A stretch of 64,000 nt of DNA from Helcococcus massiliensis (GTDB lineage: Bacteria > Bacillota > Clostridia > Tissierellales > Peptoniphilaceae). The stretch spans positions 186,001-250,000 of the forward strand of contig NZ_OGVE01000002.1 in assembly GCF_900258485.1 (NCBI RefSeq). The letters are read 5' to 3'. This document shows, in pieces, positions 30,032 to 54,365 of this stretch (position 1 is the first letter of the stretch; every line of letters begins with the position of its first letter). The notes beneath the pieces were generated by a model. That model had not been told where the DNA came from and did no database searches. It saw nothing but the letters and a program-made list of their open reading frames with translations. Made by a program: the position numbers and the translations under genes.

Positions 30032-31855
30032 TTATTTACCTGGAAATTCTTTTTTATATTTAACTTGATTATTTTTAATTTCAAAGTCATCTAAATTAAA
30101 TGTATATTGGTCTGAAGTTTTTGGATCTGTAAGATATATTAAATTACCTATATGCATTACATCAAATGGATCAGCCTTGTATTGGTCTATTAGATAATCT
30201 TTTACTTTTTGTGCTTTATCAAAATCAATTTCTTTTTCTTCTATTTCATAGTCATTATTTAGTAAATATTTTACTGTAGCAACAACTTCTTTAGCAGTAT
30301 AACCATTATATTTGCCAGCTTTAGAATTTTGTATGATTTGCTTAATACTCATGGCATGATAATGTCCACCATGTAACCAGTAAAAAATATTTTCTCTTTC
30401 TTCTGTACCATATACAGGTAAATCAGTATTTTTTAAGCTACCAAAATGAGTCATATTTTTTAGATCATCTAGGTATGGAATCAAATCCTTGTGAAGCTCT
30501 GGACTTATTGAATCATATGTGAATAATTCAGAATCTTTAACTTCTACATCTTTATTTGCGTCTGAATCATCTGCTATAAATTCAGCATTTGGGTAATGAG
30601 GTCTAGGATCTTCATGAACTATAGCTATTTCTTCTTCATTTATATATAAGTGATAGTGGTCTCCATGTTGCCAAATTCTTGTAACACCTTTTGGCCATTC
30701 AAACTTTCCTTCACTATTGTGGTCGTGGCTATGGTCATGATTGTGGTCATGATTGTGATCATGGCTATGATCAGCATTTTGGCCATGATTGTGGTCGTGA
30801 TTATGATCTTGATTCTCTGGTTTCTTATCTATATTTTTATTATTTTCTTCTTTATTGCTGGTTTGATTGTTGTTATCATGGTCTCCCTTATATTCTCCAA
30901 ATTGTGCATTTGGATATAGGTCTTTAGGGTTTTCATAAACTATTCCTTCATTTCCCTTGGAATCAAATAAGTGATAATGGTCTTCGTGTTTTAATATCCT
31001 TACTATATCAAACCTATTTACTTTTGCTTTCCCTAGAATATTTGTAATTTTGAGTTTACTTATTTCTTTATTCCTATTTAACTTTTTATTTGTATTTGAA
31101 GGTTTTTTACTTGTTGATCCTGTATTTGAGGATGAAGTTGAAGAAGAATTGTTTGATGTTTTTTTGCTTGAACCTTGGCTAGTTCTTCTTGACGAACTAG
31201 TTGTTTTATTGGTTTTAGCCACTGATCCATGTCCATGGCTACCATGGTAGGTTTCAATTTTTATACCAGGATATTGGGCACTTGGATTTGTATAAGTTAT
31301 ATACTCATTTCCCTTGTTTGTATATAAGTGGTAATGGTCTCCATGTTTTGCTATTCTTATCACTTTTTCTTTTGTTTCATTTGTAGATTTCTTTTTTACA
31401 GAATTAGAAGCAGCTCTAGCTGTAGAGCCGCTTCCTAAAAAAATATTTTTACCACTATTTTTGCTTTCTTTATGATCATGGTCATGGTCGTGATCGTGGT
31501 CATGGTCGTGGTCATGGTCACCATGGTGTCCTTCATATTCTTTTATCTCAATATTTGGAAATGCTTGGCTTGGATCTTCATAAGTTAAAAATTCTTCGCC
31601 TTCTTTTGTAATAATGTGCCAATGATCACCATGCTTAGAAATTTCTGTAACTTCCTTATCTTTTAAGTCATCTATTTTAACAACTTTTACTAAAGATAAG
31701 CCATCTTTTTTATCATCTTTGGATTCTTCCATAGTTGTTTCTTTTACAGTTTCTTTTACTGTTTCCTTTTGACTTTCCTTATTACCTTTACCACAAGCTA
31801 CTAAAGCTAATGATAATGCTAATACTAAAATTGATATTTTGTTGAATCTTTTCAT
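30032..31855 (-). CDS. Histidine-triad (Pht-like) metal-binding lipoprotein
   Basis: This is a 607-residue surface lipoprotein with lipobox LALVAC and lipidated C21. Five HxxHxH triads lie at residues 75-80, 171-176, 290-295, 397-402 and 495-500, each in a repeat resembling streptococcal PhtD. Two His-Asp/His-Asn runs occupy about 110-128 and 351-379. A K-E-T tether follows C21, and a Ser/Thr/Lys linker spans about 215-262. In streptococci, Pht proteins scavenge Zn2+ for an ABC importer; that role is inferred here. A Fur-like operator in the leader suggests metal control. The C-terminal 110 residues form a separate domain I cannot name. Confidence 0.88.
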   Translation of the reverse strand: MKRFNKISILVLALSLALVACGKGNKESQKETVKETVKETTMEESKDDKKDGLSLVKVVKIDDLKDKEVTEISKHGDHWHIITKEGEEFLTYEDPSQAFPNIEIKEYEGHHGDHDHDHDHDHDHDHDHKESKNSGKNIFLGSGSTARAASNSVKKKSTNETKEKVIRIAKHGDHYHLYTNKGNEYITYTNPSAQYPGIKIETYHGSHGHGSVAKTNKTTSSSRRTSQGSSKKTSNNSSSTSSSNTGSTSKKPSNTNKKLNRNKEISKLKITNILGKAKVNRFDIVRILKHEDHYHLFDSKGNEGIVYENPKDLYPNAQFGEYKGDHDNNNQTSNKEENNKNIDKKPENQDHNHDHNHGQNADHSHDHNHDHNHDHSHDHNSEGKFEWPKGVTRIWQHGDHYHLYINEEEIAIVHEDPRPHYPNAEFIADDSDANKDVEVKDSELFTYDSISPELHKDLIPYLDDLKNMTHFGSLKNTDLPVYGTEERENIFYWLHGGHYHAMSIKQIIQNSKAGKYNGYTAKEVVATVKYLLNNDYEIEEKEIDFDKAQKVKDYLIDQYKADPFDVMHIGNLIYLTDPKTSDQYTFNLDDFEIKNNQVKYKKEFPGK

Positions 31856-49347: not shown

Positions 49348-49406
49348 AATCTTTTCTCCTTTATTATTCCTATTTTTTATTTACTATATTAAATTTATTC
49401 GCTTCC

Positions 49407-49692
49407 ATTTCGTCTTCACCTATCGGCTCGACTCAATGGGTCATTCGCTTTACAGTCCAAGGTCGACAGCTCAATTTCTTGCTTCGCACTCATTTCGCTG
49501 GACCTTTTTTGCATAAGCTCGACCTGCATTTCGTCTTCACCTATCGGCTCGACTCAATGGGTCATTCGCTTTACAGTCCAAGGTCGACAGCTCAATTTCT
49601 TGCTTCGCACTCATTTCGCTGGACCTTTTTTGCATAAGCTCGACCTGCATTTCGTCTTCACCTATCGGCTCGACTCAATGGGTCATTCGCTT
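49407..49692. repeat. Perfect 121-bp tandem repeat, 2.4 copies, between grpE and dnaK
   Basis: Copies at 49407-49527 and 49528-49648 are identical, and a 44-bp partial third copy runs to 49692. The partial copy contains the last two codons and the stop of grpE. Within a unit, GTCCA/TGGAC (49455-49459 with 49499-49503) and AGGTCGA..GCT/AGCTCGACCT (49460-49471 with 49516-49525) cross each other, allowing alternative hairpins or a pseudoknot. No ORF or promoter is seen. This explains nearly all of the 49348-49682 gap. Confidence 0.92.
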
Positions 49693-50233: not shown

Positions 50234-51253
50234 CTACCTTCTTTCTATATGTCCGTTTATATACCTATTTATTAGGGTTAAATCTGCTAAGACCTTATCA
50301 TAAGTCATACTATTAGGTCCCAAGACACCAATTTTACCTCTGACTCCTTTACTATTTGAAAAAGTCATGGTAATTATAGAAAATTCTTTGAATTCTTCTA
50401 TACCTATCTCTTCACCTATGTAAACTTGAAGATCTGAATCCATATTTGCTGATAATATTTCCATCAAGGAATTGTCTGTTTTTAGATAATTTATTAAATC
50501 TAAATTATTTTCTACACTATCCTTGTTATAGCTATAAATATTATCAAGACCTTCATATAAAACCTTATCTTCAGAATGGAAGCTTGTAGTTTTTTCTATA
50601 ACTGGAATGATTTCATCTAAAACTGTATGTTGTCTTCTTAAGACTTCATAAGTTGTAGAATGTAATTCTTCCAAAATTTCGCTTCTCTTTTTATTTATAA
50701 GACTTGAATTTAACAGACTATTTACTAAGTCTAAAGTATGTCTGTCAATCGGTTGCTTTAATCTAATACTATCTGAAATAACTTCCTTAGAATTATATAT
50801 GTAAATAATCACTAATTCTCTAGGACTCAAATATACTATATTGATATATTTCAAATATACATCTTTCATCTCCGGTAAAAGAGCCAAAGCTGTATATCCA
50901 CTTATATTAGCTAACATCTTGATAGCATTTCCTATAATAGTATCTAAAGCTTCTGATTGACTCATAGCAGACATATTATAAATACTTACTGGTCTATGTT
51001 TTATAGGTATTTTATTTGTAAGAATCGCATCAACATATTGTCTGTATGCTTCATTTGAAGGTATACGACCTGACGATGTATGCAATTTTTCCAAATAACC
51101 TAATTCTTCTAAGTCGGCCATCTCGTTTCTAATAGTCGCTGCCGAAACTCCAATTTCTGGTAGTTTTGACAAAGCCCTAGAACCGACCGGCTCTTTAGAG
51201 TCTATATATGACTTTATAATTGTATTTAATATTTTTATTTTTCTTTCATCCAT
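50234..51253 (-). CDS. hrcA: Heat-inducible transcription repressor HrcA
   Basis: This 339-residue repressor binds CIRCE elements and is kept active by GroEL. It has an N-terminal winged helix (GVSAATIRNEMADLEELGYL near 35) and a GAF-like core. AAAGGAGG precedes the ATG. As first gene of the operon with two CIRCE sites at its promoter, it should repress itself along with grpE, dnaK and dnaJ; groESL carries a third site. Confidence 0.97.
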   Translation of the reverse strand: MDERKIKILNTIIKSYIDSKEPVGSRALSKLPEIGVSAATIRNEMADLEELGYLEKLHTSSGRIPSNEAYRQYVDAILTNKIPIKHRPVSIYNMSAMSQSEALDTIIGNAIKMLANISGYTALALLPEMKDVYLKYINIVYLSPRELVIIYIYNSKEVISDSIRLKQPIDRHTLDLVNSLLNSSLINKKRSEILEELHSTTYEVLRRQHTVLDEIIPVIEKTTSFHSEDKVLYEGLDNIYSYNKDSVENNLDLINYLKTDNSLMEILSANMDSDLQVYIGEEIGIEEFKEFSIITMTFSNSKGVRGKIGVLGPNSMTYDKVLADLTLINRYINGHIERR

Positions 51254-51296: not shown

Positions 51297-51325
51297 AGTA
51301 TAGAGTATCTTTTAGCACTTGTCAA
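51297..51325 (-). promoter_or_regulatory. hrcA operon promoter
   Basis: TTGACA (51320-51325) and TATACT (51297-51302) are 17 bp apart, a near-perfect sigma-A promoter lying between and within two CIRCE elements. Confidence 0.9.
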
Positions 51326-51338
51326 GTCTAAGTGCTAT
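51312..51338 (-). promoter_or_regulatory. CIRCE element 2 of the hrcA operon
   Basis: TTAGCACTT-N9-AAGTGCTAT overlaps the -35 box. Together with element 1 (46 bp away) it would let two HrcA dimers enclose the promoter. Confidence 0.82.
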
Positions 51339-51354: not shown

Positions 51355-51408
51355 AATAAAAAGCGATTAAACACTGATAATATCATACTTTATCAGATTT
51401 AACCGCTC
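51355..51408 (-). terminator. Terminator after the HemW-like gene
   Basis: A long imperfect stem (AGCG...TTAAA...TGATA with complements) ends in TTTTTATTTT on the minus strand. It isolates the lepB-lepA-hemW transcript from the hrcA promoter. Confidence 0.75.
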
Positions 51409-51413
51409 TAAAA

Positions 51414-52535
51414 TTATATTATATTTGTATAAAATTCGTTGGAATAGTACAAGCCTTCGTCTGTAAATTTAATTATATCACCCGATATTTCTATAAGATT
51501 TTCTTCCAAATATTTCTTTATTATATCCTTATATTTTTCTTTAAAATCTATAGCAAACCTATTTTTGAATTCTTTTAAATCCAAACCTTCATTCATAGTC
51601 ATCTTGTTAATTATATAGTAGACAGACTTTTCTTCGCCAGTCAATAACTCTTTTACCTGATAGGCTAATTCATTTAATCTAAGTTTTCTAAAATAATCTT
51701 CAAATTCAAAAGAGTTTGTATACAAAACATTATCAATAAATCCACTTGCTCCCATACCTATACCTAGGTATTCATCAAGGTTCCAATACTTTTTGTTGTG
51801 ATAAGACTGGTATCCTTTTTTACAATAATGGTTTAATTCATAATGCTCATATCCTATAGCAAGTAATTTCTTTGATATAAACTCTGCACTTTCTTCTACA
51901 TTTATACCAGGCACCTCTATTTTTGATTCCATATTATCTTCTGTTAATATGATATCCTCTTCGGACTTAGCCGAATAAAAAGAAACATGCGGTACTTGTA
52001 ACTTATTGATATAGGAAATATCAGTTTCAATATCTTTAAAAGTTTCTTCTGGATAAGCAAAAAACATATCCATATTTATGTTTTGTATCTTAAATCTTCT
52101 AATCACTTTAATAATATGAATGATATCTTCCTTACTATGAAGCAAATCTAAATTATCCAGACCTTTTTGTAAAAAAGTAAAGGCTTTTATAGAAAATCTA
52201 TTTATACCATGCTCAACATATCGTTGTATTCTGATTTCTGGTATTTGCGGATCTACTTCTATAGTCTTTTCACATTCTGGTCTTACATTATATTTCTCAT
52301 AAATATAGTCCAGTAAATCAGTGATATAATCTGTGTTTACAGAAGATGGGTCACCACCTCCTAGGTAGATAGAGTCAATAAGGTAGTCATCTTTCATCCT
52401 TAAATCTAACTCTTTTCTCAAGTACTTGAAATAATCTCTTATATAAAAATCTTTATTAAAATAGGATAAAACAGCCCTATGGTTGTGTTTATATATCCTG
52501 AATGGTATATGAATGTATAAACCAATATTTTTCAT
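51414..52535 (-). CDS. HemW-like protein lacking the radical-SAM cysteines
   Basis: The 373-residue protein sits at the conserved hemW position between lepA and hrcA and keeps the HemW fold: LYIHIPF at residues 6-12, a GGG-P-S loop at 59-64 (GGGDPS instead of GGGTPS), and the C-terminal HemW domain with YHNKKYW and GIGMGASGF. The CxxxCxxC motif that binds the 4Fe-4S cluster should be at residues 13, 17 and 20; here they are R, H and R. Each change needs several base substitutions, so a sequencing error is unlikely. Radical SAM chemistry is not expected. It may retain a non-catalytic binding role. It follows lepA by 12 bp. Confidence 0.87.
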   Translation of the reverse strand: MKNIGLYIHIPFRIYKHNHRAVLSYFNKDFYIRDYFKYLRKELDLRMKDDYLIDSIYLGGGDPSSVNTDYITDLLDYIYEKYNVRPECEKTIEVDPQIPEIRIQRYVEHGINRFSIKAFTFLQKGLDNLDLLHSKEDIIHIIKVIRRFKIQNINMDMFFAYPEETFKDIETDISYINKLQVPHVSFYSAKSEEDIILTEDNMESKIEVPGINVEESAEFISKKLLAIGYEHYELNHYCKKGYQSYHNKKYWNLDEYLGIGMGASGFIDNVLYTNSFEFEDYFRKLRLNELAYQVKELLTGEEKSVYYIINKMTMNEGLDLKEFKNRFAIDFKEKYKDIIKKYLEENLIEISGDIIKFTDEGLYYSNEFYTNII

Positions 52536-52547
52536 CTAATCTTCCTA

Positions 52548-54365
52548 TTATTCACCTTCGTCATATTTCAATACAGCTAAGAATGCATCTTGTGGCACTT
52601 GAACCCTACCAACAGACCTCATACGTTTCTTACCTTCTTTTTGTTTTTCAAGAAGCTTTCTCTTTCTAGAAATATCACCACCATAACATTTAGCAATAAC
52701 GTCTTTTCTATTTGCAGAAACTGTTTCTCTAGCTATTATCTTAGCACCAATAGCCGCTTGAATAGGTATAGAGAACATATGCTTTGGTATTTCTTCTTTT
52801 AACTTGCTTGAAATTTTTCTTCCTCTTTCATAGGCCTTATCTTCATGAACTATTAATGATAAGGCGTCTACAGGTTCTCCATTTAATAATATATCTAACC
52901 TTACAAGGTCTGACCTTTGATACTTGTAGAAGTCGTAATCTAAGGATGCATATCCCCTAGTTTTTGATTTTAAAGCATCAAAGAAGTCATATATCACCTC
53001 GTTTAGAGGAAGAATATATTTTATTTGAACCAAGTTTTTATCTAGGTATTCCATAGTTTCGAATACCCCTCTTTTTTCTTGGCATAATTCCATAACTTGA
53101 CCAATATAGGCTTCCGGAGTCATGATAGAAGCTTTTACTAAAGGTTCTTCTACGTAGTCTATCAGAGTTTGGTCTGGATAATCAGTTGGGTTTTGAACCT
53201 CTATCACCTTACCATCCTTCAAATGTATCCTATATATAACTGAAGGAGCGGTTGCTATAATATCTAAACCAAATTCTCTATCTAATCTTTCTTGAATGAT
53301 TTCCATGTGTAATAGACCTAGGAAACCAGTTCTAAAACCGTAACCTAGGGCTGCAGATGTTTCCGGTTCAAATTCTAAGGCAGCATCATTAACCTTAAGT
53401 TTTTCTAATGCATCCCTTATATCATTGTAAGATTCACCCTCTGCTGGGTATAATCCTGAATAAACCATTGGCAAGGCTTTTTGATAACCTGGTAGTGGCT
53501 CTGCTGCAGGATTGTCGACAGAAGTAATGGTATCACCAACTCTTGCTTGCTTGATATCCTTGATTGAAGCAACTACATAGCCTACATCACCAGCGGTTAT
53601 TTCATCAGTTTTAAATTCACCTCTCATGGAATAACCCACTTCAGTAACTTCAAACTTAGAACCTGTTGACATCATCTTTATTTCTTGCCCAGGATATATT
53701 TTCCCTTCTTTTACTCTTACATACATTACAACTCCTCTATATGTGTCGTAGTAGGAGTCAAAGATTAGAGCCTGAAGAGGATTGTCATCCCTACCTTTAG
53801 GAGCAGGGATTTCTTTTACTATAGCCTCTAAAACATCTCTAATATTTATACCTTCTTTAGCAGAAATAGCAGGTGCTTCACTAGCTTCTAAAGCTAATAC
53901 ATCTTCGATTTCCATCCTAATTTCATCTACTCTTGCTGAAGGTAGGTCAATCTTATTTATAACTGGTACTATTTCCAAGTTTTGATTCATAGCTAAATAT
54001 GTGTTTGCAAGGGTTTGAGCCTCAATACCCTGACTTGCATCTACTATCAATAAGGCACCCTCACAAGCAGCTAAAGACCTAGATACCTCATAGTTAAAGT
54101 CAACGTGCCCTGGAGTATCTATAAGATTTAGCATGTATCTTTCACCATCTAAGGCATCGTAAAATATTTTTACAGCCTTTAATTTAATTGTAATTCCTCT
54201 TTCCTTTTCAAGATCCATACTATCCAATAGCCTGTCACTCATCTCCCTTTGGGTTACAGAGCCAGTTTCTTCAATCAACCTATCAGCTAGGGTTGATTTC
54301 CCATGGTCTATATGGGCAATTATTGAAAAATTTCTTATATTTTCTTTTTTAATATCCATAATCAC
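52548..54365 (-). CDS. lepA: Elongation factor 4 (LepA)
   Basis: This 605-residue ribosomal GTPase is involved in back-translocation and 30S assembly. G1 is AHIDHGKST (near residue 18), G3 is DTPGHVD near 82, and G4 is NKIDLP near 137. EF-G-like domains II, III and V and the LepA C-terminal domain ([16 protein letters not shown]) are complete. It lies between the second signal peptidase gene and the HemW-like gene, as in many Firmicutes. Confidence 0.97.

Follow-up and report, generated by a model that had tools for sequence, protein, structure and literature searches.

The window, by which we mean the whole 64,000-nucleotide stretch of Helcococcus massiliensis DNA analysed here, carries on its minus strand a lepA-X-hrcA gene order, in which the middle gene, called hemW2 here, encodes a protein with the N-terminus MKNIGLYIHIPFRIYKHNHR (Table 1). 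A first-pass annotation of the window had placed this gene in the lepA-hemW-hrcA slot and described its product as an intact, full-length HemW homologue, and both statements are borne out: the frame is open over 373 codons, the LYIHIPF and GGGDPS motifs are kept, and the HemN_C domain matches above its Pfam cut-off (residues 308-363, 3.5e-10), as it does in all three Cys-less proteins described below. The best NCBIfam match is the HemW model TIGR00539, at 183 bits and thus under the curated cut-off of 205.4, and the HemN and HemZ models, at 70 and 80 bits, do not reach their cut-offs (324.95 and 321.4). The radical-SAM Pfam match begins only at residue 48 and is borderline, just over its cut-off. 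An AlphaFold2 model built from 16 sequences (pLDDT 87, pTM 0.86), in which confidence within the N-terminal region is lowest at the former Cys loop, has HemN (1OLT) as its clear first match by Foldseek and VIA-align (Z 37.1 over 367 residues), and the fold is accordingly predicted to be a HemN-like radical SAM barrel.

Table 1. Features of hemW2 and its surroundings in the window (codon numbers refer to hemW2)
Feature	Coordinates	Strand	Basis or remark
lepA, upstream neighbour	52548..54365	-	kept in 3/3 species
hemW2, Cys-less HemW paralogue, 373 aa	51414..52535	-	ORF + NCBIfam/Pfam matches; 12-bp gap behind lepA
Former CxxxCxxC, codons 13-20: R13 IYK H17 NH R20	52476..52499	-	59/59 canonical HemW have three Cys
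Codon 62, D of GGGDPS	52350..52352	-	D in 3/3 Cys-less proteins, T in all canonical HemW compared
Codon 117, K for invariant G of SMGVQ motif	52185..52187	-	K in 3/3 Cys-less proteins
HYExNH, codons 231-236	51828..51845	-	N235, H236 invariant in Cys-less trio, absent from canonical HemW
HNKKYW (HNxxYW heme motif of HemW), codons 246-251	51783..51800	-	kept in 3/3; motif meaning PMC11834973, PMC10320005
Terminator hairpin then T-run, 3' of hemW2	51360..51409	-	RNA fold -19.6 kcal/mol, z -5.7
CIRCE-like inverted repeat TTAGCACTT-N9-AAGTGCTA	51312..51338	.	overlaps TTGACA-17-TATACT promoter for hrcA
hrcA, separate transcription unit	50234..51253	-	ORF + promoter scan

An association of hemW2 with the heat-shock genes beside it had also been proposed, and for this we find no support. 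A strong terminator and a CIRCE-type promoter belonging to hrcA itself lie between the two genes, and in a second species of the genus (G001) other genes intervene, so that hrcA is not even adjacent; the arrangement thus gives no indication of a functional link between hemW2 and the heat-shock genes. In the third species (G002), the intergenic DNA behind hemW2 shows a comparable hairpin and promoter on reading. Two repeat features of the window deserve mention in their own right: a perfect tandem repeat of a 121-bp unit (2.4 copies, 100% identical, 49406-49692) lies between dnaK and grpE and splits the heat-shock operon, and short tandem repeats with units of 12-36 bp (30716-30814 and 31472-31520) possibly encode a repetitive His/Asp-rich segment.

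The replacement of C13, C17 and C20 by R13, H17 and R20, the feature that first drew attention to the gene, is confirmed by comparison with 59 canonical HemW proteins, all 59 of which have Cys at these positions. Across the three species that encode a Cys-less protein, positions 13/17/20 read R/H/R, R/H/S and R/V/L (the former motif being FRIYKHNYS at L018 and FRNEEVNYL at L019), with only R13 common to all. No conserved cysteine occurs anywhere in the alignment of the three proteins, which makes a cysteine-ligated cluster unlikely. The canonical invariants lost in all three are C13, C17, C20, D21, F22, T62, G117, Q119, R131, S235, N236, R271, E306 and R313, and 31 others are kept, including H246, N247, Y250 and W251 of HNxxYW. 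Fixed replacements at lost sites are R13, D62, K117, N235 and H236; considering that new invariant residues are not enriched at lost sites (5/14 against background, P 0.40), we regard the R/D/K set as suggestive only. Among the affected positions, Q119 (now F or I) and R131 align with residues that contact SAM in the HemN structure, and the retained E93 and D156 match further SAM contacts. With E93 and D156 in place, SAM binding by hemW2 would be damaged and not necessarily absent, and the lost SAM-site residues argue against SAM as its bound nucleotide.

The first-pass annotation implied an organism whose sole HemW had lost its cluster. This implication does not hold, and the second, Cys-containing HemW for which it had proposed a search is present in all three genomes of the genus. 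A whole-genome search located this copy in the window's own genome at G000:C7:61439-62548, between the arsC and rlmD genes, with the motifs FCEKKCNYC and GGGTPS. Each of the three genomes thus pairs a Cys-less copy behind lepA with a CxxxCxxC copy elsewhere; the two loci are unlinked, and the neighbours of the Cys copy differ among the three species. On TIGR00539, the Cys copies score 297-307 bits and the Cys-less trio 183, 172 and 138 bits, all below 205.4. Because canonical HemW is encoded in all three, the radical-SAM function remains in the cell. Proteins with HemN_C number just two in each of the three genomes, and since this search yields no third member, the genus has no HemN or HemZ.

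Beyond the genus, HemW loci from about 45 further genomes in the family retain the three cysteines, mostly at the lepA locus. A profile of the Cys-less trio, run against 249 genomes of the order, gave 570-664 bits on the trio and at most 307 on all else, so that none of the 246 other genomes holds a member of the subfamily; in a phylum sample of 398 genomes, nothing scored above threshold in the 397 beyond the window's own. Within the genomes searched, the Cys-less subfamily is confined to one genus. A family-wide loss of the cysteines is rejected by the same data, given that relatives keep the motif in their lepA-locus HemW and profile scores fall from 570-664 to at most 307. In a LepA tree, G067 and G058 are the sister group of the genus, and their lepA-locus HemW is canonical, which places the loss on the stem of the genus. 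A literature search for a Cys-less HemW or for a pseudoenzyme returned no relevant description.

The Cys-less trio forms a single clade (support 100/100), and the Cys copies of the genus cluster with their sister, a subgroup of Aerococcaceae that includes Eremococcus, adjoining the HemW that the sister genera encode at the lepA locus. The AU test rejects the trio both as sister of the genus's Cys copies alone (p 0.001) and when joined with those copies plus Eremococcus (p 0.016), and does not reject it with the wider clade to which lepA-locus HemW from the sister genera belongs (p 0.31), the long branch of the trio limiting the test. The Cys-less gene occupies the ancestral lepA-hemW-hrcA position; the Cys copy may have left the lepA locus, or may have come by exchange with Aerococcaceae.

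Several other HemW genes were seen along the way. HemW proteins about 50% identical to the Cys copy of the genus occur in 13 of 60 Aerococcaceae genomes (L099-L110, L003), against 31-38% in the rest of the family, a sign of horizontal transfer between an Aerococcaceae subset and the genus, in either direction. Another genus of the window's family (g3) has an extra HemW that is broken at one shared position, into frames of 224 and 173 codons, in three genomes (L049:1693-2851, L050:2816-3974 and L051:2942-4100); these three copies are 96-99.8% identical at the DNA level. A fourth genome (L054:2707-3837) carries a related, intact gene whose N-terminus is altered. The sequences suggest a mobile or recently spread copy. 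In two further genomes (L052:3019-4166, L053:2856-4009), the one HemW that was found lies in two frames with a break at a poly-A run, which may be a frameshift, slippage or an assembly error.

Selection for a non-radical function had been suggested for hemW2, and the divergence pattern supports it. The Cys-less proteins of the three species are 43-52% identical to one another, compared with 61-64% for the Cys copies and 81-86% for LepA. Despite this divergence, the Cys-less frames are open in all three species, whereas neutral simulation at 0.2 redraws per site introduced stops in 1000 of 1000 copies. Codon positions 1, 2 and 3 differ by 0.37-0.41, 0.23-0.30 and 0.50-0.57, with position 2 well below position 3, and dN/dS (NG86) is 0.27-0.46 across the three species, a value that is not near 1, with dS saturated. 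Judged by these comparisons, purifying selection acts on the Cys-less copy, more loosely than on the Cys copy. Sequencing error or a pseudogene is rejected on the same grounds, namely the selection test and an open Cys-less frame in three of three species.

The conserved sites have also been re-patterned. Conservation in the Cys-less trio peaks at residues 229-262 around HNxxYW, where 20 of 34 positions are invariant against 0.30 overall; a peak as high arose in 25 of 2000 permutations, and the same stretch is merely average in the Cys trio (0.50 vs 0.51 overall). Three regions have been released in the Cys-less trio: conservation is 0.20 in the former Cys loop, where the Cys trio has 0.70, and it is down to 0.07 behind GVQ (Cys trio 0.46) and to 0.03 in the linker (Cys trio 0.50). 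The strand ends 2-12, 51-64 and 110-122 stay tight. From the alignments, hemW2 looks like a retained pocket with altered chemistry.

HemW binds heme, and the HNxxYW motif has been implicated in this binding (PMC11834973, PMC10320005, PMC11442138); in Escherichia coli HemW, the cluster is dispensable for heme binding and required for transfer to NarI (PMC10320005). On sequence grounds, heme binding by hemW2 is plausible. Considering that HNxxYW is invariant in 59 of 59 canonical HemW proteins, whatever their heme metabolism, the motif may instead be structural and not a heme ligand. As to heme enzymes, which the first-pass annotation had brought up, ferrochelatase, cytochrome bd and HemN/HemZ were not found in the three genomes of the genus, and a NEAT heme-uptake domain was found in one of them (G001). 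A heme client is therefore not evident, and for a genus without ferrochelatase and cytochrome bd the ligand would be scavenged heme or something else.

The explanation we favour, and to which we give about an even chance, is that hemW2 is a genus-specific, neofunctionalised and ligand-binding pseudo-radical-SAM HemW, whose likeliest ligand is heme or a tetrapyrrole. A HemW that holds a ligand and does not transfer it is what one would expect from the loss of the cluster and SAM residues while HNxxYW is held tightest. Such a protein would bind a ligand that is planar or anionic, heme or another tetrapyrrole being the simplest candidate, through the HNxxYW pocket with the help of the new invariant His236. 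Since neither cluster nor SAM is usable, hemW2 would hold, store or sense the ligand, or would assist canonical HemW as a non-catalytic partner, and would drive no transfer by itself; the canonical HemW of the same genomes keeps the cluster. A more specific version is offered tentatively: hemW2 would be a carrier of heme or another tetrapyrrole that descends from HemW, works without a cluster, has a re-tooled His pocket and stands beside canonical HemW in a genus without heme synthesis of its own.

Somewhat unlikely, in our estimate, is that hemW2 serves as a non-catalytic partner or regulator, a heterodimer subunit or competitor of canonical HemW for which the HNxxYW side would be a protein interface. 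It would account for the fact that the Cys-less copy is always accompanied by a Cys copy (three of three genomes), for the retained predicted fold and for the regional conservation; however, the co-occurrence is weak because a single evolutionary event was sampled, and the two genes are unlinked, with different neighbours of the Cys copy in each species. We think it unlikely that the function has nothing to do with heme and belongs with the transcription unit of lepA (EF4), the remodelled barrel mouth binding some other metabolite. That hemW2 immediately follows lepA in each of the three species, including the one in which hrcA is not its neighbour, would fit this, as would the lack of visible heme synthesis or cytochrome bd in the genus and the location of the new charged residues R13, D62 and K117 at strand ends making up what was the active site; yet the lepA-hemW order is ancestral throughout the family, so that the adjacency may be inertia, and HNxxYW is kept in full. 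Slow decay of a redundant duplicate after a second HemW took over is highly improbable and disfavoured by the selection test: the Cys-less copy has evolved at roughly two to three times the rate of the Cys copy (tree paths 1.0-1.5 vs 0.5-0.6) and scores below the HemW cut-off, but its frame stays open at dN/dS < 0.5 where every neutral simulation acquired stops, and its conservation is focused, one stretch exceeding the average of the functional paralogue.

If hemW2 is indeed such a heme or tetrapyrrole carrier, the ligand-holding and cluster-dependent roles of HemW would be physically split into two proteins. Bearing on what HemW needs its Fe-S cluster and SAM for, hemW2 represents a natural removal of both with the rest under selection. 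Together with the intact paralogue in the same genome, it offers a natural pair in which ligand binding and cluster-dependent transfer can be studied apart, and the pair also bears on the role of HemW in bacteria without heme synthesis.

HemN relatives without a cluster are already a recognised kind, exemplified by PsgB (TIGR04419), which NCBI describes as HemN-related and without the iron cluster. While hemW2 reflects the same kind of event, the trio scores only 46, 45 and 42 bits on this model against a cut-off of 300, lower than canonical HemW here (69-82), so the two cluster losses are separate. HemN, the oxygen-independent coproporphyrinogen III oxidase, is the closest solved fold; unlike hemW2, with which it shares 18% identity, it is an enzyme with cluster and SAM, and hemW2 falls far under the TIGR00538 cut-off. 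CgdH2 of Campylobacter jejuni, a HemN-like protein reported to act as a heme chaperone via histidines (PMC10320005), has the Fe-S motif without HNxxYW, the reverse of hemW2. The closest relative overall is HemW itself, which is the best family match and shares with hemW2 its length, predicted fold, HemN_C domain, HNxxYW motif and lepA-hrcA locus. Canonical HemW has CxxxCxxC and the SAM-site residues T, G, Q and R, whereas hemW2 scores below the family cut-off and alone has the invariant residues R13, D62, K117, N235 and H236.
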